Assembly (NCBI RefSeq): GCF_028858535.1
Contig: NZ_JAPMOU010000031.1
Coordinates: 1 to 64,000, forward strand
DNA length: 64,000 nucleotides
Origin: Spartinivicinus poritis
Lineage (GTDB): Bacteria > Pseudomonadota > Gammaproteobacteria > Pseudomonadales > Zooshikellaceae
Reading direction: 5' to 3'
Shown here: piece by piece, positions 19,417 to 34,289 of the stretch
How the letters are laid out: each line of letters opens with the position of its first letter
How positions within the stretch are numbered: position 1 is the first letter of the stretch
Made by a program: the position numbers and the translations under genes
The notes under the pieces: generated by a model
Told to the model about the DNA's origin: nothing
The model's database searches: none
The model's input: only the letters and a program-made list of their open reading frames with translations

Positions 19417-19899
19417 TTATTCAGGTATTGATATTAGTTGGAGCTCATGACCAGTTGCTCGGATAAATTTCTCTATGGCATGCATAGATATTACCAACGT
19501 TGAAGTGTTAATCAGTGGGTGGCATTGCATGGTAGAGCAAGCCCAAACGTCTTTGTCTATTAGCAGCTCTACAGATTGGTTTTGATCATTTATTAAGCTC
19601 AACAACGAAACCGCGCCAGGCTCAATACCTAAATATTGATTTAATCTTTCGGCAGAAGCAAAACTTAACTTAGTAACATTTAATTGAGCAGCCAGCTTAT
19701 CTAAAGCGACGGTTTTATGATCATTTACGATTATCAGAAAATGCCGCTTGCCTTTGCGATCACGTAAAAATAAATTTTTAGTTTTATCTCCTGGAATATG
19801 TGAAGCTAAAATATTAGCATCTTCACATGTATATAATGGTGGGTGTTGATACTGCTCAAAGCTGATGTTGTGAGTTGATAAAAAATCGTAAAGTTTCAT
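19417..19899 (-). CDS. YbaK/ProX-domain aminoacyl-tRNA deacylase (ProXp-ala/PrdX-like)
   Basis: 160 residues, a complete single-domain YbaK fold. Motifs: Y-x-HPP-x-YTCEDA near the N-terminus, catalytic-region Lys in TKNLFLRDRKGKRHFL, LGIEPGAVSLL, and CHPLINTST. This combination fits PrdX/ProXp-ala, which hydrolyses Ala-tRNA(Pro) in trans to correct mistakes by prolyl-tRNA synthetase. It ends 5 bases from the stop codon of the convergent antiporter gene. Related specificities in the superfamily (YbaK for Cys-tRNA(Pro)) cannot be fully excluded. Confidence 0.85.
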   Translation of the reverse strand: MKLYDFLSTHNISFEQYQHPPLYTCEDANILASHIPGDKTKNLFLRDRKGKRHFLIIVNDHKTVALDKLAAQLNVTKLSFASAERLNQYLGIEPGAVSLLSLINDQNQSVELLIDKDVWACSTMQCHPLINTSTLVISMHAIEKFIRATGHELQLISIPE

Positions 19900-20082
19900 T
19901 AACGTTTCTAAAATATAAGAAATCTGATCGTTTATTGAGCTTATGGCTTAAACAAACTTGTGATGCCTCAGGCTATCATCTTATTATTAGTAGTGTATAC
20001 GACATAATGCAGACAGCTGGTCGGCGAAGTATTATTGTACTGTCGATGAATGACTATTGTACAGTACCAAAAGGAATTGGAT

Positions 20083-20769
20083 ATGAGTGATGATATTGTA
20101 AGCACAGAAAGTGCGGGGCCTACGAGATGGGAGCAAGCTAAAGCTTGGGTAATTGGGCTAACAGGGGTTTTGCTGGTATTTCCTGCACTTATTAACTCTG
20201 CTGTTGATATCTATAAAGCTATTTTGAATGTCCCTAGCACTGAAGCAGAAGCGATTAATACCCAATTGTTTAAAGCCCATTTTCAAGAATTGCCTTTGAC
20301 AGTTGTTCCTGTCTCTATTAAGACTGATTCTGGCACTGTTGTTATGCAAATGTCTATATACGAGAATGGCGACATATATGCAGAATATGGGTTTCATTCC
20401 CAATGGTTTCCTATGCCAGTTAATAAGCAGGCTATTGCATTTAACTCGTTACCATTGTTGTTCTCTTCAGCTTATGCTGAAAACAGGCCACATGAGTTGA
20501 ATCAACCAATAACTGACAATGCTTTCATTCAACAGGATATCATCCATAATAACCAAATTAAGCGAAGTCGTTATTATAACAATGGGCAGTTAGAAACATT
20601 TTCGATAGATATTCAAACAGGTGAGATCAAAAACAAGCAATCTCGAGAAGTGGAAAAAGTGCCTCAAACTGGCACTACTCCTTCGGTGCCAGTAAAAAAA
20701 CGTCCAAAATTTCAACCCATGGAAGTAGACTTGGTCAATTTGAAGAAACAGAAAAATAATAGTCAGTAG
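20083..20769 (+). CDS. unknown single-span membrane protein
   Basis: 228 residues from ATG 20083, which has AAGGAA seven bases upstream; an in-frame ATG at 20050 lacks one. A hydrophobic helix at about 23-42 (WVIGLTGVLLVFPALINSA) is followed by an extracytoplasmic-looking beta-rich domain (about 60-180, with an MSIYENGDIYAEYG strand pair) and a basic, proline-rich C-terminal tail. I recognise no family. It is convergent with the OmpA-family gene at 20811. The upstream region 19900-20082 holds a possible promoter but nothing else clear. Confidence 0.7.
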   Translation: MSDDIVSTESAGPTRWEQAKAWVIGLTGVLLVFPALINSAVDIYKAILNVPSTEAEAINTQLFKAHFQELPLTVVPVSIKTDSGTVVMQMSIYENGDIYAEYGFHSQWFPMPVNKQAIAFNSLPLLFSSAYAENRPHELNQPITDNAFIQQDIIHNNQIKRSRYYNNGQLETFSIDIQTGEIKNKQSREVEKVPQTGTTPSVPVKKRPKFQPMEVDLVNLKKQKNNSQ

Positions 20770-20810
20770 AGTGAGCCTCATAGTAGAGGGTGTTCAAAAC
20801 GTATATTTTA

Positions 20811-21758
20811 TTACTGTAAAACTAACTCTACTCGACGATTTATTTTTCGGCTTTTTTCATGAAAATTACTAGCCAAAGGTGCTAATGGTCCAACACCGTG
20901 AGCTTGTAGTTGATGGTTACTGCTTGAAAACTGGTTAACTAAAGTGTTTACAACAGTTTCAGCGCGTCGTTGGGAAAGCGATATATTGTAATCAAGTGAG
21001 CCAGTTGTATCAGTATGACCAACTACATAAAATTTTTGATTGGGAGTTTGCTTCAATAATAAAGCAATATTTTGCAGAGTTGGAGTTGATTCTGGCTTTA
21101 GTGTTGCCTTATTGAGGTCGAAATATAAGCTATATAACGTCACTTTACCATTGCGTTCTAACTCTTCTTTTAAGTAATCAAGGTTTACTTCTACCATGCC
21201 AGTTTGTAAAGGTGCTTGTTCTAGTACATCCACTTGGGCTACCAGCTGTTTAGTTGAACGTCTTACGATATATAATGCTAAATAAATATCTCCATCAGAT
21301 TGAGATAATTTTGCCGCTAAAAAACGTTGAGAAGTATTTTTACCTGCTAGTCGAGAACCTCGACTTAATACTTGATTAGACCAGTCATAACTTGAGCCGC
21401 ATGTCGTGCTATTACATTCAAAAATAACTTTAAAGTTGTTAGACAATAACTCATTTTGGTAGTTTTTAAACACTTCTAAACTTGAGCGGTTATGAGGTAA
21501 CGTGTATGTAATTCTAGTAATTTTACCTTCTAATGAAAGACTCTCTTGAACTTTATATTTCTGTTTCGTTAATTTACTAATAGGTAGAATGTAGTTGTCG
21601 TAGGCAATTTGCTTGTAAGCACTAATTGTTGAACCTTGATATCGAGTAACTAACGGGTGATCTTTGCTGTTAGGAATATCATTGCCAAAAACGTTAGTAC
21701 TTATTATGAACCAATATAATAAGCTAAAGTACTTACAAGATGATATAGAATATGACAT
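20811..21758 (-). CDS. OmpA-family protein with N-terminal DUF4892-like domain
   Basis: 315 residues, AGGGA seven bases before the ATG, N-terminal signal peptide (hydrophobic about 10-24). About 35-185 resembles DUF4892 (a Y-Q-G-S region, then an RITYTLP strand and two cysteines near the TCGSSYDW motif). The last 110 residues are an OmpA-like peptidoglycan-binding domain with LYFDLNKATLKPES, VVGHTDTTGS, LSQRRAETV and a terminal NRRVELVL. It should sit in the periplasm or outer membrane bound to peptidoglycan. It is transcribed divergently from the MotAB-helicase operon across a 270-bp gap, and a functional link is possible but unproven. Confidence 0.85.
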   Translation of the reverse strand: MSYSISSCKYFSLLYWFIISTNVFGNDIPNSKDHPLVTRYQGSTISAYKQIAYDNYILPISKLTKQKYKVQESLSLEGKITRITYTLPHNRSSLEVFKNYQNELLSNNFKVIFECNSTTCGSSYDWSNQVLSRGSRLAGKNTSQRFLAAKLSQSDGDIYLALYIVRRSTKQLVAQVDVLEQAPLQTGMVEVNLDYLKEELERNGKVTLYSLYFDLNKATLKPESTPTLQNIALLLKQTPNQKFYVVGHTDTTGSLDYNISLSQRRAETVVNTLVNQFSSSNHQLQAHGVGPLAPLASNFHEKSRKINRRVELVLQ

Positions 21759-22032
21759 CTGATTTCCCTATACTTAATAGTTATTAAACTATTTATAGCA
21801 ATAAGCTAATGAAGTTAAATTGTTCGATGGTTGGGTCTAAAAAAATAGCCTTAATTTTGAGTATATACTGTTTTATTTTTTCTTCTTGTTACTCTATCTG
21901 TCGTTTTTATATCATTTAACTTTTATTACTAAATACGCAACTGGTGGTCTTAATATTTGGAGACTGCTTCTGTGTTCTACTTCACAGCAAATAGTGTTGC
22001 AGTATAGCATTATACACCACCAAATAAGCGGT

Positions 22033-23163
22033 ATGACGGTAAATGATCCATTGACAGAAATCTCTTCAAAAAAATCTAATCTTCTTGTTTCACAAAAGCA
22101 TGAAGTAGATCTATCAAGAGCTATTTACTCCACAAGTTTATCGTCAGCGTCCATAGATGATGAAACGCAGTTGTTTTATATCACTATTGACAAAGTTCTA
22201 TATCAACACCCTGTAGAAGTCATCGAAAAAGTATTGCGTGCTAATGGATTTTCCTTAAACCTGGAAAATATACTGGCATGCATGGATGATTTTAAAATTG
22301 GCACTTCGGTACAGCTGGACGATGAGTTTGCTGATCCTGATGAACCATTAAGTTTCATTCACTGTATTCAATTTAGGTTGCCTCAGAAAACATCAGTAGG
22401 GCCTACTCTTAGTAAATTTTATGAAGAAATTGAGTCTTATGAATCAATTATTGCCGACTTAAAAGGTAGTCAGGCAAATAAAGATTCTGTTGGAAAAAGA
22501 GAAGCAGAAAGTAAAAAAAGAATTCAGGAACTTGAGGCTGAAAACAGATCGTTGAAGATGCAGCTACGTTTGATGCAAAGTCAGCTAGAAAGTGCTGTAA
22601 AATCTGTAGAAAAAGCCAATGAGACGTTAGAAAGTCAAAACTATCTGCCTTCAAATGTATTTCGGGCAACAGTACGTGAAATTAATATTGAAGACCGAAT
22701 GGTTATTGTCAAGTCAGGAAAAACCACAATAAATATACCATTGTTTATGTGTGATATTTTGCCTGAAGCTGGCGATCATTGTTTGGTGCATGTAGAACAA
22801 GGTAATACACTAGGTTGTTTCTTTTTTAATAAGGAGAGAAAACACTTGCAGCCACAGTTGGCTAAGGTAATCCTAGTGAAAAACAGTATATGTAAGATTC
22901 GCGATGAAAATAGAAATACATGGTTAATTAAAGCAAAAAACTCAGTTGAGTATAATTTTTTTAGAACGTTAAAAAATAATGACCACCTATTGATCTATCT
23001 ATTGAAGGGTAAACCACTAAGGTTTGAATCTCTATTGCGCCCTGAAATTAAGCCGCATACTGATAGCGTTCAGGAAACCATACAAAAGTTTCAAATAGCA
23101 AAACTGGAAAAGGTAAAACCAATGAATGAGCAAAGCAATCAAGTGGATGGTGAACGTAAATGA
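22033..23163 (+). CDS. unknown coiled-coil protein, first gene of MotAB-helicase operon
   Basis: 376 residues from ATG 22033; the frame is open upstream to a TTG at 21886 but holds no better start. About 1-50 is polar and disordered-looking, 50-130 is mixed alpha/beta, and about 135-210 is a coiled coil (KKRIQELEAENRSLKMQLRL). About 215-330 looks like two short beta-rich domains (VREINIEDRMVIVKSG; IPLFMCDILPEAGDHCLVHV), possibly SH3- or OB-like. There is no signal peptide or membrane helix, so it is cytoplasmic. I recognise no family. It ends 31 bases before the MotA-like gene, in an unbroken same-strand run with the channel and helicase genes. Its role may be to connect motor and helicase (inference). 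Confidence 0.75.
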   Translation: MTVNDPLTEISSKKSNLLVSQKHEVDLSRAIYSTSLSSASIDDETQLFYITIDKVLYQHPVEVIEKVLRANGFSLNLENILACMDDFKIGTSVQLDDEFADPDEPLSFIHCIQFRLPQKTSVGPTLSKFYEEIESYESIIADLKGSQANKDSVGKREAESKKRIQELEAENRSLKMQLRLMQSQLESAVKSVEKANETLESQNYLPSNVFRATVREINIEDRMVIVKSGKTTINIPLFMCDILPEAGDHCLVHVEQGNTLGCFFFNKERKHLQPQLAKVILVKNSICKIRDENRNTWLIKAKNSVEYNFFRTLKNNDHLLIYLLKGKPLRFESLLRPEIKPHTDSVQETIQKFQIAKLEKVKPMNEQSNQVDGERK

Positions 23164-23194
23164 GTAGTGACAGTTAATAGACGGTGAAGGCTAG

Positions 23195-24046
23195 ATGGAA
23201 GGACTTAACTTAAAAAAGTATTTACACACCACAAGTAAAAAATTTGACCCTTTTGCTTTAATTATTGGTTTGGGTGGATTTGCTGCTGTGGGCTATGCCC
23301 TAGGCCTGAAAGAAGATATTAATACTTTTTTAGACCTAAGGTCTTTACTGATTGTAATTTGCGGTACTTTTGCTAGTATTTTATTTCAATTTGACTTCAG
23401 GTCTTGTGCATCTAGTCTAAAGTTGGTGCTTAGTTCTTTTTTTGGTACACCGGGAAGAAAAATTACCAATACACTTATTGAACTTGATCGAACAATTATA
23501 GCAAATGGTAAATTAACTGAGCTGCGTGAGGGTGAAAGCATCAATGGAGAGCTTTTAAATGACATTATATATATGCATAAACAAGGGCTCTTTTTTGAAG
23601 AGATCGATGAGTTTGTTACTTCAAGAATTCGAGATCAAATTTTAAAACGCAAAGTTTCTGTTGATATTCTTCGCAGGGCAGCCATTATTGCTCCTGCACT
23701 AGGCCTTTTTGGAACCGTTATTGGTTTGATAGGTGTGTTAAGGTCTCTTAATGATCCAAGCGAGATAGGCCCATCAATGTCATTAGCATTAATGACGACA
23801 GCTTATGGGGCTGGCTTAGGTTCTATTGTATTTACCCCACTATCTGGACGACTAGAGCATCATAATAGTATTTATTTAGCTGCACATGAACAGCTTTTAA
23901 ATAAAATTGGTATTTTAATTAAGCGCGAAGAAAATAGTATTGACGCTCAATTTTTAGCGAATACAGGGCCAAACGAAGACGCAGAATATCAATCAGAGTT
24001 TGAATCACATGATGAAGTTTACTCTGAAGAGAGTGATCCTAAATGA
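23195..24046 (+). CDS. MotA/TolQ/ExbB-family channel protein (MotA-like)
   Basis: 283 residues. Four membrane helices at about 19-38, 48-66, 161-183 and 194-215, with a cytoplasmic domain between helices 2 and 3: the MotA/PomA layout. Helices 3 and 4 carry family residues (APALGLFGTVIGLIGVL; SLALMTTAYGAGLGS) and the DPSEIGPSMSLAL loop is very PomA-like. It would form the ion-conducting ring around the MotB-like partner, whose gene overlaps its stop codon. Unlike Zorya ZorA it has no long C-terminal cytoplasmic tail, only about 40 acidic residues after the last helical part. No flagellar gene is adjacent. It is followed by a helicase, so a dedicated non-flagellar role is inferred. Confidence 0.9.
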   Translation: MEGLNLKKYLHTTSKKFDPFALIIGLGGFAAVGYALGLKEDINTFLDLRSLLIVICGTFASILFQFDFRSCASSLKLVLSSFFGTPGRKITNTLIELDRTIIANGKLTELREGESINGELLNDIIYMHKQGLFFEEIDEFVTSRIRDQILKRKVSVDILRRAAIIAPALGLFGTVIGLIGVLRSLNDPSEIGPSMSLALMTTAYGAGLGSIVFTPLSGRLEHHNSIYLAAHEQLLNKIGILIKREENSIDAQFLANTGPNEDAEYQSEFESHDEVYSEESDPK

Positions 24047-24711
24047 GAATGTCTGAGTTAGATCTTAGCCTTGACTCACAAGATGATAGTGAAAGTAAAA
24101 CAGCTTTCTATATTAGTTTCAGTGACCTGATGGTTATGTTGGGTGTATTTTTCGTTATGCTGCTTTCAATAAGCCAAGTGGATGTTGGATCATTTGAAAA
24201 AGTTAAAACAAGTGTCACTGGTAATACTGCAGGAACCTTAGTGGAGCTAAGCAATAACTTAGCCAAAATTGTTGAAGATGATCCTGATGTATCTGGTGTA
24301 TCTGTAAGAATGGCTAAAGATGGTATACGCTTGGTTTTGGATACTAAAGCATTATTTCAAACTGGAAGTGCAAATTTAAAGCCTCAGGCATTGGATTCTT
24401 TAGAGCCAATCCTATTAAGTATATTAGCCACAAAATATACGATTGATGTAGAAGGCCATACTGATGATGCGCCTTTGCATCGTTACTATAGAATGAATAA
24501 TGAGTATTTGCTTGAGACAAACTGGTCTTTGAGTGGTCGCAGAGCCAGTAGTGTTATTCACTTCTTGCTTCAATTTGGCTTTACTGAAAAACGCTTAAGA
24601 CTAGTAGGGTATGCGAGTACCCGCCCAATAAATAGTTTTAATGGTAAAAAAGGAGCAGCCCTGGAAGCTGCTAGAGCGAATAATCGTCGAGTATCACTAC
24701 TTGTTAAATAA
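24043..24711 (+). CDS. MotB-like stator partner with OmpA peptidoglycan-binding domain
   Basis: 222 residues; its ATG overlaps the previous stop (ATGA), indicating translational coupling with the MotA-like gene. A single membrane helix at about 22-44 contains Asp28 in FYISFSDLMVMLGVFF, equivalent to the ion-carrying Asp of MotB. A short plug/linker is followed by an OmpA-like domain (about 85-222) with VEGHTDDAPL, NWSLSGRRAS and NRRVSLLVK. It anchors the motor to peptidoglycan and supplies the protonatable (or Na+-binding) residue. An ATG two codons downstream is an equally possible start. Fifteen bases separate it from the helicase gene. Confidence 0.92.
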   Translation: MRMSELDLSLDSQDDSESKTAFYISFSDLMVMLGVFFVMLLSISQVDVGSFEKVKTSVTGNTAGTLVELSNNLAKIVEDDPDVSGVSVRMAKDGIRLVLDTKALFQTGSANLKPQALDSLEPILLSILATKYTIDVEGHTDDAPLHRYYRMNNEYLLETNWSLSGRRASSVIHFLLQFGFTEKRLRLVGYASTRPINSFNGKKGAALEAARANNRRVSLLVK

Positions 24712-24726
24712 TATGTGTGTTAATCA

Positions 24727-27700
24727 ATGCGATTTTTAACAAATAAAAATATAGAGCAGGGTGTTTCTGCAAAATATGATCGTAAAAATAGATTTGTTGT
24801 AAAGCGCTATAAAACAAAAGCAGGCTCTTTTGTCTATTTACTCACCAATAGCAGTAATAATGATCGCTTAGCTATTCCACATTATCTCATGGATAGGTTT
24901 AGAGCCCTTTTAGTAAAGCTACATAAAAAAATGGAGAGTGTAGCTGCTCAAGACATCGAAATCGATGAAAAATTATATTTTAAGGATACAGAGTACTATC
25001 GTTTTGAATATACAGCCAATACATTAGAACACTTAACTATTGTTGATCTGAATAGTGCAGGTCGTTTTAATATTTATAGAGAAGCTGTTAATACAGTGGT
25101 TGAGCTGTTATACGATGCTGGGTTGGATCACCCAAATGGTGTCTTTGATAGGATTATTGATTATCATAAACTGTTTCAATTCACTTTTAATGAAGGAAGT
25201 GAAAGTATAACCAGTGGTTTATCCGTTCGGCGTAATACACTGATTGAAATGGGGGATTATATTCCTCTTGAAAAGGATGCACAAAATCATGTGATTTCTG
25301 TTACAACAGATCCTACTTCATTTGAAAATGGTTTAACTCAAAAAAATAGTGGGATTAAAAAAACGGCAGATACTAAAAACTTAGAATTTAAAAGAAAGCT
25401 AGGTGAACGTAATACCGAGGAAAACCACACTGTAGATTATGATACACTATTTGGGGCATCCTCTGCCAAGAAGGCCAAGCGTCCAGTAAAAAATAAGGCA
25501 AGACTACCTTCTGTTAAGATAACCAAGACAAGCTGTCCATTACCATTATTGGCTGGTGATATTAAATCGCATACAGCGAAAGTCTATAAGTGTGAGTTAA
25601 CATCAGAGGATGCATCATCCCTAAGAAAAGGTGTGCTGGCTGATCGAGATGCAGAGCATCTACTGGGTTTTGAAATATTTACTGCTATTTTTAAGAAAAA
25701 TGGAAAACTAAAAAGTTTTAGCTTTCCTCTTTATTATATGAATGTAAAGGTTGAAGAGTCTGGACGATTTTTACATGTCTACCCTCCTGAAAATGGTGAT
25801 GTGTATCTTAACCATCTTAGTTTATCAGTATTTATTGAAAATTTTTCAGACTCCAAAAAGAGTGAGCCGCTTGATTCATTTTTTAATACACTGCTTTCTC
25901 AGAAAATAGAGATTGATAAAAAACTTCATAATATATCTATTCGTCGCCAACTGCCCTATAGTGAAGATGTCTTTCGACAAACTCGTGAAATATTAATAGG
26001 TAAAAGAGGAGAAAATGGTAAGGGAGGGATTATTGAAAATCTCAATATTATTGGTATTGAGTGTGATTTAGGCTCAGTGGTGTTATATAGGGCTGAACGT
26101 AATCCATCACCTTTAACAAGGGCGCTAGACCTAGATTTGAAGAAGATTCAACGTACTGCTCATGAATATCCTCATAGGTTTTATGCTTCCTTATTAGGTA
26201 AATTTCTTAATCCTGAACTGAAAACTAATAATATAAATGTAGAAGAATTTTGCTCTACTCCTCTTAGTCCAGGAACTTTGACTAAGTCCTCGAAGGCATT
26301 AATTCAAAATTTGAATGACCATAACTTTGTCTTACTTGAAGGTCCACCTGGAACAGGTAAAACGTTTACCATTAGAAATCTGTTGATACACTGCTTAAAT
26401 TCTAATAAAAAACTATTAATTGTAAGCGATCAGCAAGCAGCAATTCATGCACTTAATGAAAAAATACAAGAGTATTTGGTGGGTAAGGACGTTGCATCTG
26501 TAACAGCAGTAAAAACGATGAACTTATGGAAAAGTGCAATTAAGGTTATTGATGAAGTTCCTTCAAGCACTGATGATCTTGGACTGTGGATAAATAAACT
26601 TTCAAAAATGTTGGCAATGGATCTGTCCCGTGAGCAGGATTGGCCACATGATAACCCTAAAATATTAGAAGATATTCGAAAGTTGGATGCAGAATACCAG
26701 GAGGTAAAGGAAAATATAGGGAGAGTATTGAATAAAAGCTTCGAGCTGGTAAATCGTAAAAGCCAAATTATACCTAAAAATCTCCATCCAAGTAATCATG
26801 ATGATATATCTGATTTAACAGCATTTTTAACATTTATTGGATCAGGTGATCTTTCTAAAGCCAATAAGTCGGTAAGCTATCGAAAACATTTGGCATTAGC
26901 TAGTAAGTTTATAGAACTACGGCGGGAAATGCTGAACAGCAATTATGCATCATGCTATCCAGACTTTGAGTTTAGGATGGAGAGTATTAATGAGCTGGAA
27001 TCTGTAGTTTCAGGCCATATCAATATTTTGCAGCTACTTATTAAAGAAAAACCTAAAACCGAAGATGAGTTTTTCAATTTATTTCAAACTGAAGTAGAGT
27101 CATATATTAACTCTTTTTTAGTTGACTACTGGACAAAGTGTTTTGGTGCCATATCAACCGGCTCAGTTACCTTAAAAATACAAGCTGTTTTGAAGCATCC
27201 CTGTATCAGTGTTTGGAAAAGCCTTTTAAAACAGCTATTGTTTCATCAAGATTTCATCACTATAGTTAAAAGTTGTGAAAACCCTGATCAGGTATTACGA
27301 CAATTTAATCAGATACATCATTTTCTTGATCCAAACCAAGTAGAGGTTGAACACTGCTTAGCATTTGATATATGTCAGTACTTTTTAAGTGGATATAGGG
27401 AAGTTTCAATAAATTATCAACTTGAACAGTTGACAAAAATTCAGCAAAAAAGAGATATGCTGATAAAGGAAATGTGTCTACTTAAGCTGACTAGTATATC
27501 AAAAAAAGCTATTGCGAATAGGCAAAATAGTACTAATAGAGCAACTAAAATTATTAATTTGGTTGAATCTCTGAAGTCATGTAATACAATCGATACAGGG
27601 AGTGGCGCTTCAATTCTTAAGGAGCTTCAAGAAGAACTTTGGGAGTGTTTCCCAATTTGGATTTGTCGAAAACAAGCTGTTCCATTTTTATTTCCATCTA

Positions 27701-29025
27701 AAGAAAATATGATTGATTTAGTGGTAGTAGATGAAGCAGGGCAATGTCGAGTTGATGATGCTTTACCTTTGTTATATCGTGCTAAAAAACTAATGGTGGT
27801 TGGCGATGATAAGCAAACTGTATTTAATAAAAACTCCATTATAGATGACTATTTATTTCGTGAAGCTGAGTTAGAAGAGCACTTGCGAAGTATTCAAGCT
27901 AGAGGTGTTAAGGGAGGGGGATCAAACCTTTTTGAATTAGTTAAATCCATTAAACAAGGGGGGGTATTGTTAGATGAGCACTATCGATGTCCACCTGCAA
28001 TAATTGCTTATTCAAACGAGTATGTTTATAACAATGATTTGAAAATAATGCAGTGGCAACTTCCCAGCTCAACTCCTTCAGTTGTTGTCGACTATGGTGA
28101 GAAAATTGCCACCAGTAATAAAAAGACAACTAACTGGAAATATAAAGGGATCGAAGTCGAAATGGTTGATCGATTTTTTAGCTATATTGTTAAAACAATA
28201 AAGAAAATCGAAAAGGAAACTAAACGGACAATAAATGTAGAAACCGATGTAGCAATTTGCTATTTTCTTTTGAAAAATGAACCATATATTAAAGATAATA
28301 AATCCAAGCTACTGGTAAAACTAGACAGGGGGCGTGATGTGCTGGATGGAGCAGGTGCAGCGCTGCAGGGTAAAGAAAGAGATTATATATTTTATTATTG
28401 GGATATTAGCAGTTCCAACCTGGCTTCTTTCCGGCAAGGGGATGACCCCGACAAACGCAAAGGAGAACTCAATGTATTGATGAGTAGGCCTAAGGTCAGA
28501 GCTTATCATTATTTACATCGGAACTTTGAAACACTAAATCATGGCTCAACAACCATAACCAATTATTTGTGGAACACTTATCGTTCACAAAATAAAAGGA
28601 GCACTAAAGTTCGCTCTAATAATAACTATATTTGGACAGATAGTACGAGTGGACATTCAATCATTGCTATTCTTTCACATTTATGGAGCTGTCGTTCTAT
28701 TCCAGCAGTTGATGCCTATGAACCTTATTTTAATATTGTTATTGGTAATCCAAAACAAAAAGTTGATCTTATGCTAGTTCCCAAAAATGATACAAAATCT
28801 AGTTCAACTGATAAATCAATTGCTGTAGTTGATTTAAGCGCTTTTAAGATGAGTGACAACTCTGTAGATGATGTCGTTGATTATTACTTTCAGCTACAGC
28901 GAGCGGTTCCACGCGTAGATCCAGTATTTACTTTTATTCATGAAATAGCTGATGAACGATCTGGCGCTTACCAACAAATTGAAAAGAAGATACTGGCTGA
29001 GGTGCCTAGCCGAAAATGGCCCTAA
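24727..29025 (+). CDS. UPF1-like superfamily 1 helicase, 1432 residues
   Basis: Residues 1-200 and about 280-500 are unassigned and separated by a Lys-rich linker (about 245-265). The helicase core has Walker A GPPGTGKT (539-546), Walker B VVVDEAGQ (Asp1002), a GDDKQTVF motif III near 1024-1032, LLDEHYRCP (about 1083-1091), the Q-GKERDYIFYY motif V and LNVLMSRPK motif VI (from 1249). DEAGQ and the motif order place it with UPF1/DNA2/IGHMBP2-type SF1B enzymes. About 460 residues lie between Walker A and B, much of them helical, probably the 1B/1C insertions. The C-terminal 140 residues (KVDLMLVP then IAVVDLSAFK) may be a degenerate PD-(D/E)xK-like fold, weakly supported. It would translocate on nucleic acid in the cytoplasm. 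It is last in the operon. Confidence 0.9.
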   Translation: MRFLTNKNIEQGVSAKYDRKNRFVVKRYKTKAGSFVYLLTNSSNNDRLAIPHYLMDRFRALLVKLHKKMESVAAQDIEIDEKLYFKDTEYYRFEYTANTLEHLTIVDLNSAGRFNIYREAVNTVVELLYDAGLDHPNGVFDRIIDYHKLFQFTFNEGSESITSGLSVRRNTLIEMGDYIPLEKDAQNHVISVTTDPTSFENGLTQKNSGIKKTADTKNLEFKRKLGERNTEENHTVDYDTLFGASSAKKAKRPVKNKARLPSVKITKTSCPLPLLAGDIKSHTAKVYKCELTSEDASSLRKGVLADRDAEHLLGFEIFTAIFKKNGKLKSFSFPLYYMNVKVEESGRFLHVYPPENGDVYLNHLSLSVFIENFSDSKKSEPLDSFFNTLLSQKIEIDKKLHNISIRRQLPYSEDVFRQTREILIGKRGENGKGGIIENLNIIGIECDLGSVVLYRAERNPSPLTRALDLDLKKIQRTAHEYPHRFYASLLGKFLNPELKTNNINVEEFCSTPLSPGTLTKSSKALIQNLNDHNFVLLEGPPGTGKTFTIRNLLIHCLNSNKKLLIVSDQQAAIHALNEKIQEYLVGKDVASVTAVKTMNLWKSAIKVIDEVPSSTDDLGLWINKLSKMLAMDLSREQDWPHDNPKILEDIRKLDAEYQEVKENIGRVLNKSFELVNRKSQIIPKNLHPSNHDDISDLTAFLTFIGSGDLSKANKSVSYRKHLALASKFIELRREMLNSNYASCYPDFEFRMESINELESVVSGHINILQLLIKEKPKTEDEFFNLFQTEVESYINSFLVDYWTKCFGAISTGSVTLKIQAVLKHPCISVWKSLLKQLLFHQDFITIVKSCENPDQVLRQFNQIHHFLDPNQVEVEHCLAFDICQYFLSGYREVSINYQLEQLTKIQQKRDMLIKEMCLLKLTSISKKAIANRQNSTNRATKIINLVESLKSCNTIDTGSGASILKELQEELWECFPIWICRKQAVPFLFPSKENMIDLVVVDEAGQCRVDDALPLLYRAKKLMVVGDDKQTVFNKNSIIDDYLFREAELEEHLRSIQARGVKGGGSNLFELVKSIKQGGVLLDEHYRCPPAIIAYSNEYVYNNDLKIMQWQLPSSTPSVVVDYGEKIATSNKKTTNWKYKGIEVEMVDRFFSYIVKTIKKIEKETKRTINVETDVAICYFLLKNEPYIKDNKSKLLVKLDRGRDVLDGAGAALQGKERDYIFYYWDISSSNLASFRQGDDPDKRKGELNVLMSRPKVRAYHYLHRNFETLNHGSTTITNYLWNTYRSQNKRSTKVRSNNNYIWTDSTSGHSIIAILSHLWSCRSIPAVDAYEPYFNIVIGNPKQKVDLMLVPKNDTKSSSTDKSIAVVDLSAFKMSDNSVDDVVDYYFQLQRAVPRVDPVFTFIHEIADERSGAYQQIEKKILAEVPSRKWP

Positions 29026-29526
29026 AAAGATTGGTAATAATGTATTAGGCTAGCAAACTATAAAGGCTATGTTTAAATTTTTTATATTGTTTTTTGTAAT
29101 AAAAATATCACTTTAGATAATTGCTTTCTAAAGTGATGAATAGCTACTTCTCGATATTTATTGATAAAAATAATATAAAGCAAATAGTTTTGATCAGCAG
29201 CCACTGACTGTGTTTGGGATGAGGTCACTTGTTCTTTATGCACAGGACAAACTCTATAACTTGATTACCCAGATTATTATAAAAATCAATAATTAGTTAG
29301 AAAAGCAAACTAGCTTAGGAGTTTGGCTATACTAATCAAATTGCTTGCGATGACTTTATATTTAACTAAGGGTATATTGATTTAAATAGTTGTATGTTAT
29401 CTCAATCTGTCTGATAAACTTACAAGTAAAGTATTCACTTTTAATACATGTAGGTACCTTGTTTAAAAGTTTTGTGAATATTGAAAACATACTTTGCTTT
29501 GAAAAGAATGCAAACATGAGGGTTGA
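29026..29526. other. intergenic region with one stem-loop
   Basis: About 500 AT-rich bases after the helicase gene. An 11-bp perfect stem (ATCACTTTAGA, 29107-29117, with TCTAAAGTGAT, 29127-29137) has no U-run but could end or protect the helicase transcript. No gene is seen in the rest; the last 100 bases presumably hold the promoter of the next gene. Confidence 0.55.
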
Positions 29527-30351
29527 GTGATTTATCTAAAAATAATTGTTTTTATTACAGTTTTTTCTTTATCGATGCTTGCAAACAGTTTGCAGTCAGT
29601 TGATGTTTGGACTTACTACCAAAACCCTCCGTTTGTTGTTAGTTCAGAAAACAATCATGGGCTAACTTACAAGTTTTTTTGTTATCTTAATATTAAGTAT
29701 AAAGATAAAATGGAATTTAATGTACATTTTATACCCAAAAGAAGAATAAATTACTATCTCTCCAAAGGGGAAGCAGGTGTTGTTCCTTGGGTTAGTCCAT
29801 TATTTTTTAATGATAAAAATATGGACCATTATCTATGGAGTCAATCAATCATTGATGATCAGCAGGATATTATTTCATTAGCAACAAATAAAGTTACTTA
29901 TTCAAACAAACATGCACTTACTGGGTTGTTAGTAGGGGCTATTATTGGACATCGTTATATTGTGATTGATGACCTTGTTGAAAATAAATTAATGTTTAGA
30001 AAAAACTTTCGTAATGAAGAAATAGTTTTAAATGTTTTATTGAATAATCGGGTTGATTTTATAACCTTGCCAAGATCAACAATTCAATTCTATATCAAAA
30101 GTTTAAAGCTCGAAGAAAAGTTATATATTTCACCAAAGCCACTGCAAGCATACTCTCGTCGATTGTTGATCACTCCAAATCTAAAGAGTGTACACCAGTT
30201 TTTTATTAAGATCCTTCCAGAACTTATAGAAAGCCCTACTTGGTTTTTTATAGAGGAACAGCATGCTGCTTTTGATAAAAATGTAAAGTTAAGCAAAGAA
30301 CATCTCAGTGAAGAAGAAGCTACATACATAAAGGCATGTGAGCCGTTATAG
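29527..30351 (+). CDS. periplasmic solute-binding-like protein
   Basis: 274 residues starting at a GTG with GAGG upstream. The signal peptide (hydrophobic about 4-18) is followed by a divergent SBP_bac_3-like fold: VDVWTYYQNPPFVV near the mature N-terminus, PKRRINYYLSKGEAGVVPWVSP, and an IGHRYIVIDDLVE segment. Its closest relative in the window is the product of 57585-58355, sharing the PPF, R-R/K-R, WV-P and GH-YI-ID-LV positions. No permease or ATPase is adjacent, so it is more likely a sensor or orphan binding protein than part of an importer. Ligand unknown. Confidence 0.75.
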   Translation: MIYLKIIVFITVFSLSMLANSLQSVDVWTYYQNPPFVVSSENNHGLTYKFFCYLNIKYKDKMEFNVHFIPKRRINYYLSKGEAGVVPWVSPLFFNDKNMDHYLWSQSIIDDQQDIISLATNKVTYSNKHALTGLLVGAIIGHRYIVIDDLVENKLMFRKNFRNEEIVLNVLLNNRVDFITLPRSTIQFYIKSLKLEEKLYISPKPLQAYSRRLLITPNLKSVHQFFIKILPELIESPTWFFIEEQHAAFDKNVKLSKEHLSEEEATYIKACEPL

Positions 30352-30387
30352 ACAGATACCTAGCTCTGCACACTTTCTGAGGAGACA

Positions 30388-31722
30388 CTAAGGAGTTAGA
30401 ATTTGCCGCAATAAACTTCTGCAATCTTTGGCCTGTTCCAGGTTGGTAACAGTTTCTTTAATGGCATTAATGCGAGATTGTGGGAGTTGGCTTGCTGCTA
30501 GCAACTGGAATTTGTCATGAAACTCTGCGGTGGTCATTGCTGTGGCTGGATCGCCTTTGGCGGGTGTATTTGGGCTGCTGTATTGATGGCCGTTTTTTAG
30601 CAAAATATGCACGCGTGACAGCATTGCTTCTGGAAAACATGCGGATAGATCATCTGCTTCGATAATTTCAATACGACGACTGATAGCTAAAATATCTTCA
30701 GCATAAATAGCATCGCCAGTTACTTCAGTTGGGCCCAGCTGACCTCGACTGATTAATGCGGCGACAGGAAACGCCAGGCTATATTGGGCTTCATCTGCAT
30801 TGGCTGGAAAATGCCCTTGTAAACGCATAGATTCATGAAACGTTTCGATACGGATAGTTTCAATATTATTGGCATTTATTTCAGGATGCTGATTCATCAA
30901 GGTAGTGATGGCAGTTAAAGCAGGTTGTGCCCAGCGACAGACAGGCCAGGGTTTAAAATACTGGGCATCTATTTCCCAGCGTTTGCCTAAATCATCCCAG
31001 TAGTGTTGTACATTTTTCATGGCTACCGTTTCTGCTGGGGCACCAGTTATACCTTCTTGTGCTAGCAGTAATGCATTGATTCCTGCATAAGCACCGGCAC
31101 CGTGGGCATCGCGTAACATTGAGGGGAAATCAACTAGTCGCATCATTGGGCAACGGGGGCCGAAATATTCAGCAATACCCAGGGCATGCCGAAACTGTTG
31201 TTCATTTAAATTCAGTAAGCGGGCACCACCGCAGACAACCCCTATACCTGAAAAAGCACCGGAAGCATGGTATTCCGCTGTGCTATTCATTAGTGCAATG
31301 CCTGCCCGTAGTGCTGTTTCATATCCAATGGTAATTGCTGCGAGTAATTCACTTCCGCTGATTTGCTGCCCTTGATTACAGTAGGCATCTGCTAAGGCTA
31401 TTAGAGCAGGTACTATTGTTGCCCCGGCATGGCCTTTCGAGGTGAAATGACCTTCATGGGCATCCAAACTATCAACGATAAAACCACCTGCCCAGGCAGC
31501 CCCTAATGGGTGAACGGGGCGGCCATCAAATAATAAGCGAGAGTAAAGGTGAGTAGGGGTATAGTGTTTTATCGCATAGTTTTTTATTTGTTGAGCGGTT
31601 TGGTTGTGACTAGCACCAGCAGCGATGCCAATAATATCCAACAATGAATGACTGACAATTTGCCGTGTATGATCAGGAATATCGCTAAATTGCAATTGAC
31701 GTATAAATTGATATAGATACAT
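30388..31722 (-). CDS. MmgE/PrpD family protein
   Basis: 444 residues with the family pattern throughout: LLDIIGIAAGAS, WAGGFIVDSLDAHEGH, KGHAGATIVPAL, GYETALRAG, HASGAFSGIGV, GAYAGINALLLAQEG, YFKPWPVCRWAQPALTA. The group contains 2-methylcitrate dehydratase (PrpD), itaconate decarboxylase and many enzymes of unknown substrate. There is no prpB/prpC nearby. Position beside proVWX and the Rieske/DapA/aldehyde dehydrogenase genes suggests a dehydratase or isomerase step in betaine-derived carbon catabolism (inference). The ribosome binding site is weak. Confidence 0.88.
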   Translation of the reverse strand: MYLYQFIRQLQFSDIPDHTRQIVSHSLLDIIGIAAGASHNQTAQQIKNYAIKHYTPTHLYSRLLFDGRPVHPLGAAWAGGFIVDSLDAHEGHFTSKGHAGATIVPALIALADAYCNQGQQISGSELLAAITIGYETALRAGIALMNSTAEYHASGAFSGIGVVCGGARLLNLNEQQFRHALGIAEYFGPRCPMMRLVDFPSMLRDAHGAGAYAGINALLLAQEGITGAPAETVAMKNVQHYWDDLGKRWEIDAQYFKPWPVCRWAQPALTAITTLMNQHPEINANNIETIRIETFHESMRLQGHFPANADEAQYSLAFPVAALISRGQLGPTEVTGDAIYAEDILAISRRIEIIEADDLSACFPEAMLSRVHILLKNGHQYSSPNTPAKGDPATAMTTAEFHDKFQLLAASQLPQSRINAIKETVTNLEQAKDCRSLLRQILTP

Positions 31723-32967: not shown

Positions 32968-32987
32968 TAGATAACTCCTAATTTATT

Positions 32988-33283
32988 ATACCCTTCTCGA
33001 ATGATTTTTAGGGTTTGTTGTCGTCGCTAAGCACCAAGGATGGTGTGAATGCAGTTTATGCAGGAGCAATAAACTGTCTTCCCCCCAATCATTTATAAAA
33101 ACATAAACTCATGGGTGCAAGTCTGATACGGCAAGACTTGCGGTAGCTGCCTTAATTTATATAAAAGTGCTACAGGAACTCATCGCTCGACGGCCCAGCT
33201 AGCACTTTTACTTCAATTAGTGTTGCTATCGCTAACCTTGCAGTAGCAGGTTAGCCCCCTAAAAACCATTCGCTTTGGCTATA
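32988..33283. repeat. A-family palindromic element, long copy A1
   Basis: About 295 bases with inverted ends (left ATACCCTTCTCGAATGATTT, right AAAAACCATTCGCTTTGGCT). Several nested hairpins lie within, for example GCAAGTC/GACTTGC near 33117-33140 and AAAGTGCT/AGCACTTT. It fills the gap between proW and proX. The internal module 33113-33180 also occurs, inverted, in element B2 (about 43043-43107). Confidence 0.88.
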
Positions 33284-34274: not shown

Positions 34275-34289
34275 GGGGTCTCCCTTTTT

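Follow-up and report, generated by a model that had tools for sequence, protein, structure and literature searches.

A conserved operon of MotAB-like ion-motor genes and a UPF1-like helicase gene in two bacterial phyla

Introduction

Zorya systems of types I to III combine the MotAB-like pair ZorA and ZorB with ZorC and ZorD, with ZorE, or with ZorF and ZorG; clustering with defence genes is usual for them and not strictly defining. To our knowledge, Zorya is the only described case of a MotAB-type motor coupled to a nucleic-acid enzyme. Here we analyse a four-gene operon of Spartinivicinus poritis, found in a 64,000-nucleotide stretch of contig NZ_JAPMOU010000031.1 (positions 1 to 64,000; hereafter the window), that encodes a coiled-coil protein (A), a MotA-like channel subunit, a MotB-like subunit and a UPF1-like superfamily 1 (SF1) helicase. 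This ion-motor/helicase operon is real and conserved; a literature search of incomplete coverage found neither a description of such an operon nor a fourth Zorya type, and it is apparently undescribed so far.

The operon resembles Zorya in that MotA-like and peptidoglycan-binding MotB-like subunits are encoded beside nucleic-acid-acting proteins, with a helicase among them as in type I, whose ZorA extends to about residue 696 (PMC11890865). Described relatives of the motor are the flagellar stators PomAB and MotAB (the FIT group) and ExbBD, TolQR and AglRS (the GIT group), the B subunits of the latter being reported to have no OmpA domain; the portions of this stator survey considered here (PMC12505986) make no mention of an operon of the present kind.

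Results

Conservation of the operon

The four genes lie on the same strand with intergenic gaps of 31, -4 and 15 bases, and the open reading frames (ORFs) proposed in an original prediction made from the DNA letters alone were confirmed at their coordinates. Comparison within the genus shows strong purifying selection on all four (ratio of nonsynonymous to synonymous substitution rates, dN/dS, 0.03-0.08); a promoter and terminator scan gave a promoter count not above that of shuffled sequences. The same gene order is found in 19 genomes belonging to two bacterial phyla: all 3 examined genomes of the window genus, and 16 of the 58 genomes of the different, small phylum of Pseudobacteriovorax. 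The first distant relative came from 84,980 species genomes, where a scan that relied on two short peptide patterns, missing relatives without them, returned a single relative of the helicase; it belongs to a Pseudobacteriovorax metagenome-assembled genome, aligns at 49% identity over residues 1-1424, and has the A, MotA-like and MotB-like genes directly upstream in the order of the window.

Within that phylum, a profile of gene A matched in 15 of the 58 genomes, and in all 15 the MotA-like and MotB-like genes follow A as far as the contig reaches, with the helicase next wherever the contig is long enough. A helicase profile found these 15 and one further genome (G437), giving the 16 carriers; 13 loci are contiguous (one with its helicase in two ORFs) and 3 are interrupted only at contig ends, and in G421, G422 and G437 the MotB-like gene adjoins the helicase at contig ends. 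The helicase of G424 is read as two overlapping ORFs of 313 and 1127 aa (L096:4403-8658, minus strand), a possible frameshift or sequencing error. Neither a lone A nor a lone full-length or strong helicase homologue was found among the 58 genomes. Searches with A in 391 genomes of the window's order and 398 of its phylum, and with the helicase in 369 genomes of its class, found the own genus only, the remaining matches being generic helicases or coiled-coil noise, and no orthologue was found in viral contigs (helicase and A alignments) or in phage records and plasmids (tblastn). Co-occurrence across genomes had been proposed as a check of the original prediction; because the order is the same in 3 of 3 genus members and in 16 of 16 carriers elsewhere, it is far beyond chance, and we regard it as nearly certain that the four genes form one unit. 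That they are chance neighbours, or an assembly or annotation artefact, has negligible probability: no support for this was found, and it is refuted by a gene order that is kept in two phyla, conserved in 19 genomes, and relocates as a block.

The relocation is seen within the genus. The operon region of G001 is syntenic with the window; in G002 the DNA match is limited to window positions 21930-29003 (the operon and about 100 bases 5' of it) and lies in a different chromosomal place. At the window's site in G002 a YbaK-like gene is followed directly by a PrpD-like gene, the counterparts of window positions 19860 and 30389 are separated by about 140 bases, and 19900-30388 is missing. Since the G002 copy is elsewhere and the window's site is empty there, the four genes moved together. 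Neither flanking repeats nor an integrase were found at the edges of the block, and a mobile-element explanation was rejected on that ground. In G001, about 120 extra bases between the MotB-like gene and the helicase hold a partial copy related to a dispersed repeat described at the end of this text.

With the window genus excluded, the distances of each system protein correlate with those of rpoB at r 0.88-0.94, falling to 0.42-0.58 with the genus included, and the pairwise distances among the four system proteins correlate at 0.81-0.93, window genus included. The window genus groups with the Pseudobacteriovorax-like carriers at full support in the system tree and is remote from them by rpoB. 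This pattern is what would be expected if the system had descended vertically in the Pseudobacteriovorax phylum and had passed, probably in this direction, from there to the window genus. Mapped on an rpoB phylogeny of 27 genomes, system presence requires 4 changes, versus 8.8 in shuffles; within the home phylum the system seems to have been inherited largely vertically.

The motor subunits

The MotA-like protein matches Pfam MotA_ExbB (3.3e-19), and the MotB-like protein matches MotB_plug (6.9e-9) and OmpA (Table 1). Asp28 and the OmpA domain of the MotB-like protein are both present as predicted, Asp28 being invariant and the peptidoglycan-binding signature of the OmpA domain intact, with its residues invariant in the MotB-like proteins. 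Pro167, Thr174, Thr201, Thr202 and Pro215 of the MotA-like protein are invariant in 18 of 18 sequences. The channel residues and the Asp of the flagellar MotAB stator are present in the system proteins, and the MotAB-like unit very probably conducts ions.

By sequence the pair is closest to the flagellar stators, and the nearest solved structures are flagellar PomA/MotA for the MotA-like protein and flagellar MotB for the MotB-like one. In a tree that combines the 18 system MotA-like proteins with further MotA-family members encoded by the window genome and by G391, the system proteins stand together, apart from flagellar MotA/PomA (support 83/84) and from ExbB/TolQ (100/99), their clade lying beside the flagellar group and away from ExbB/TolQ. 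Judged by alignment, they have an additional N-terminal segment, and the PomA loop motif ARKGGLLALE is replaced.

We consider it very improbable that the pair is an alternative flagellar or surface-motility stator with the helicase beside it by chance, a reading already disfavoured. Besides the nearest solved relatives, it has in its favour the best NCBIfam matches, PomA and MotD, though these are far under their cut-offs (104 bits versus 341, and 117 versus 283). Against it, A and the helicase are invariant partners of the MotAB pair in every carrier, the operon lies outside any flagellar cluster, the torque-loop motif is lost, and the window genome encodes its own PomA, MotA and further flagellar MotA-family genes. 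The original prediction had named MotAB homologues occurring mainly in flagellar clusters without the helicase as the outcome that would count against a system; the pair is accompanied by the helicase, not by a flagellar cluster. Four of the 16 carriers (G414-G417) have no FliG above cut-off (the other 12 have FliG), which argues that a flagellar role is not obligatory for the motor, and in these four it cannot be a flagellar stator, unless FliG was missed. The operon shares with ExbBD, TolQR and AglRS the non-flagellar use of an ion-driven unit, but its B subunit has an OmpA domain and its MotA-like clade is separate from ExbB/TolQ. A flagellar-like stator with an OmpA domain used outside the flagellum is a case that the FIT/GIT division, in the portions of the survey considered here, does not cover, and carriers without FliG would permit clean genetics.

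Comparison with Zorya

Unlike ZorA with its long tail, the MotA-like proteins are 257-287 aa in 18 of 18 cases, as the original prediction of a missing tail implied, and none of the 18 matches the ZorA models at E<=1. None of the four operon proteins matches a ZorC, ZorD, ZorE, ZorF or ZorG model, in agreement with the earlier statement that the first gene corresponds to no Zorya component, and there is no ZorC or ZorD match of the kind that, according to the original prediction, would have made the operon a known type. The operon helicase is a UPF1-like SF1 enzyme, whereas the Zorya helicase is SNF2-like. The MotB-like protein does match ZorB models (9e-17), with flagellar MotB-family models matching better (7e-34), and the MotAB pair resembles ZorAB less closely than it does flagellar PomA/MotA and MotB. 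We rejected the ZorB match as evidence for Zorya, because an unrelated exported OmpA/DUF4892 protein encoded upstream of the operon (window 20811-21758, minus strand) also matches the PADLOC ZorB models (8.5e-12), which leaves such matches uninformative and makes this neighbour a false-positive trap for Zorya calling. By its testable features the operon is not a Zorya member, and it perhaps works like Zorya.

The helicase

The helicase belongs to Pfam AAA_11/AAA_12 and has the complete SF1 motif set (GPPGTGKT, DEAGQ, VGDDKQT, DEHYRCPP, LQGKERD and NVLMSRPK), invariant or nearly so in 15 aligned members. Its core matches UPF1, IGHMBP2, SETX and Dna2 by sequence and fold, and identity between phyla is 35-49% for this enzyme of about 1430 aa. 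A VIA-align superposition on UPF1 (Z 12.8, 347 residues aligned) has a root-mean-square deviation of 11.4, from which the relative placing of domains in the model must be off. The predicted 1432-residue UPF1-like helicase with complete SF1 motifs was recovered, its motifs and UPF1/IGHMBP2 fold both being found, and to that description we add a PD-(D/E)XK-like domain at the C-terminus. The last 120 residues, which have no Pfam match in 15 members and were barely covered by the fold search, hold the invariant Asp1347 and Asp1369, and the lysine of (D/E)xK is replaced by S, C, A or R. On the predicted model this is probably an inactive nuclease-like domain of PD-(D/E)XK layout and, lacking the lysine, it is no candidate for an active nuclease.

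The best PADLOC matches of the helicase are MkoC, PDC-S37 and Hhe, the MkoC match being partial (two stretches, the better at residues 993-1221) and not full-length. With Mokosh MkoC, Hhe/PDC-S37 and CoCoNuT CnuH the operon helicase shares the SF1 clade, a large helical insertion after motif I and nuclease-like domains; it differs in that the match is confined to the helicase core and in that the usual partners (for CoCoNuT, a McrBC-type GTPase and a nuclease) are replaced by MotAB.

Protein A

Pfam gives only coiled-coil noise for A. Its model (mean predicted local distance difference test, pLDDT, 76.5; predicted template modelling score, pTM, 0.36, which makes the domain arrangement unreliable) consists of an N-terminal alpha/beta domain, a coiled coil and two barrels, so that the original description of a coiled-coil protein holds for the coiled coil and falls short as a description of the whole. 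The barrels are closest in VIA-align to EF-P/IF5A (Z 7-9) and to proteasomal Rpt, IF1 and S1-like barrels (Z about 7), and in Foldseek to the Mpa/ARC interdomain and ribosomal S1; the fold searches barely covered the N-terminal domain. The coiled coil-OB arrangement resembles the N-terminal rings of Mpa/ARC and Rpt, and we infer that A may form a ring on the MotA pentamer in place of the ZorA tail.

Table 1. Features of the operon in window coordinates
Feature	Position	Strand	Remarks
Conserved leader 5' of gene A	21930..22032	+	Left edge of the block in common with the relocated G002 copy; DNA match ends there
Gene A, 376 aa	22033..23163	+	Putative cytoplasmic adaptor; alpha/beta domain (N-terminal), coiled coil and pair of OB folds
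Coiled coil of A, residues 124-201	22402..22635	+	Predicted model
Two OB-like beta barrels in tandem, A residues 205-335	22645..23037	+	VIA-align, Foldseek
MotA-like channel subunit, 283 aa	23195..24046	+	Without ZorA tail
MotB-like subunit, 222 aa	24043..24711	+	Single transmembrane helix and OmpA domain
Asp28 codon, ion-carrying residue of the MotB-like protein	24124..24126	+	Invariant in 16/16 aligned
OmpA-type peptidoglycan-binding domain	24352..24648	+	PF00691 1.9e-14
UPF1-like SF1 helicase, 1432 aa	24727..29025	+	
Helicase motif I, GPPGTGKT	26341..26364	+	
Helicase motif II, VVVDEAGQ	27721..27744	+	
C-terminal domain, probable degenerate PD-(D/E)XK	28648..29001	+	Predicted alpha-beta-beta-beta-alpha-beta-alpha topology

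Discussion

We favour, with moderate confidence, the reading that the four genes encode a wall-anchored, non-flagellar ion motor acting through A on a UPF1-like helicase at the membrane. A peptidoglycan-anchored, ion-driven rotary unit of MotA/MotB type would sit in the inner membrane, fixed to the cell wall by the OmpA domain of the MotB-like protein and not driving a flagellum. On engagement, ions would pass Asp28 and the MotA-like ring would rotate or alter its shape; its cytoplasmic loops, from which the flagellar torque motif is gone, would displace A, and A would recruit or activate the helicase. The helicase would then translocate on, or strip, nucleic acid at the envelope, with the PD-(D/E)XK-like domain probably binding and not cleaving. 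The likeliest purpose, by analogy with Zorya, would be to survey and handle nucleic acid that enters the cell or is associated with the envelope. The motor and the helicase are probably coupled physically; a 5:2 assembly, the route of coupling through A and the nucleic-acid target are suggested by the comparisons above; and an anti-phage role, the least certain element, is somewhat doubtful. If this reading holds, the operon is an independent and more compact version of the motor/effector pairing, with a separate adaptor protein apparently taking the place of the tail, and on those grounds it offers a second test case for motor-to-effector coupling.

Several points weigh against this reading. 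The association of the system with missing FliG is non-significant (4/8 versus 12/50, p 0.2). The helicase model has a mean pLDDT of 68, with an unreliable domain arrangement, and the pTM of the A model is low as given above. Most of the 91 neighbours, drawn from 15 loci, belong to housekeeping families (RluD, LepA, PolA, TGT, ferrochelatase), and the close tracking of rpoB in the home phylum (0.88-0.94) is what one would expect of a cellular function passed on vertically, not of mobile defence.

An alternative reading is a further anti-phage defence of the Zorya kind, in which the motor would detect damage done locally to envelope or peptidoglycan as a phage injects, and would free the helicase onto the incoming phage DNA; we hold this to be possible, without leaning towards it. 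The pairing of a motor with a helicase carrying a nuclease-like domain parallels ZorAB-ZorCD (PMC11890865), and UPF1-like helicases are common in defence, as the MkoC, PDC-S37 and Hhe matches and CoCoNuT CnuH (PMC11090510) illustrate; transfer between phyla, relocation within the genus and the patchy presence in the home phylum (16 of 58 genomes) fit as well. On the other side stand the missing ZorA and ZorC-G matches, the position of the operon outside defence islands, the largely vertical inheritance in the home phylum and, with the C-terminal lysine missing, the lack of a candidate active nuclease. Among the window neighbours there is no defence match other than the OmpA artefact, and the enrichment near defence genes that the original prediction had proposed to look for was not borne out among the 91 neighbours. 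Given the housekeeping neighbours and the largely vertical inheritance, anti-phage defence is not supported so far; the original idea is partly supported, in that a genuine four-gene system of MotAB and UPF1-like helicase survives. The only strong defence-model match examined among the neighbours is a SNF2-family ATPase of G416 (914 aa, L092:12568-15309, minus strand; PADLOC DpdE 6e-117, ZorD 4e-100), which lies directly upstream of A, between lepA and the operon, and may be of the generic SNF2 family.

A housekeeping machine, in which ion flow would serve to place, pull or process nucleic acid at the envelope, whether imported or belonging to the cell itself (in chromosome segregation, DNA uptake or growth on the remains of other cells), is a tentative alternative. 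It is consistent with the vertical inheritance and housekeeping neighbours, with stable synteny in four genomes, where MFS, luciferase-like, asparaginase II and RluD genes precede A, and with the strong conservation of the long helicase between phyla. The absence of the system from 42 of the 58 genomes of the phylum speaks against it, since the system must be dispensable, as does the transfer to a distant genus. Equally tentative is the broader proposal of an undescribed class of machine, in which a flagellar-type stator, diverted from the flagellum in the Pseudobacteriovorax phylum and serving as a wall-anchored motor, would use ion flow to act on nucleic acid by way of a dedicated coiled-coil/OB adaptor and the UPF1-like helicase, in a non-defence role.

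Neighbouring genes and repeats

Downstream, the relocated operon of G002 adjoins a lipoxygenase-like ORF of 229 aa (L028:17196-17885, minus strand) whose match to PF00305 is confined to that family's C-terminal third. In the window, an ORF of 274 aa (29527-30351, plus strand) has no Pfam match above cut-off and resembles a periplasmic solute-binding protein; it is missing from the corresponding G002 site along with the operon region. A dispersed intergenic repeat family occurs in all three genus genomes, at window 32983-33200, with partial copies near 34285, 43043, 44178 and 53910, and at L026:12670-12732; its predicted RNA fold has only a slight advantage over those of shuffled sequences (z -1.9).

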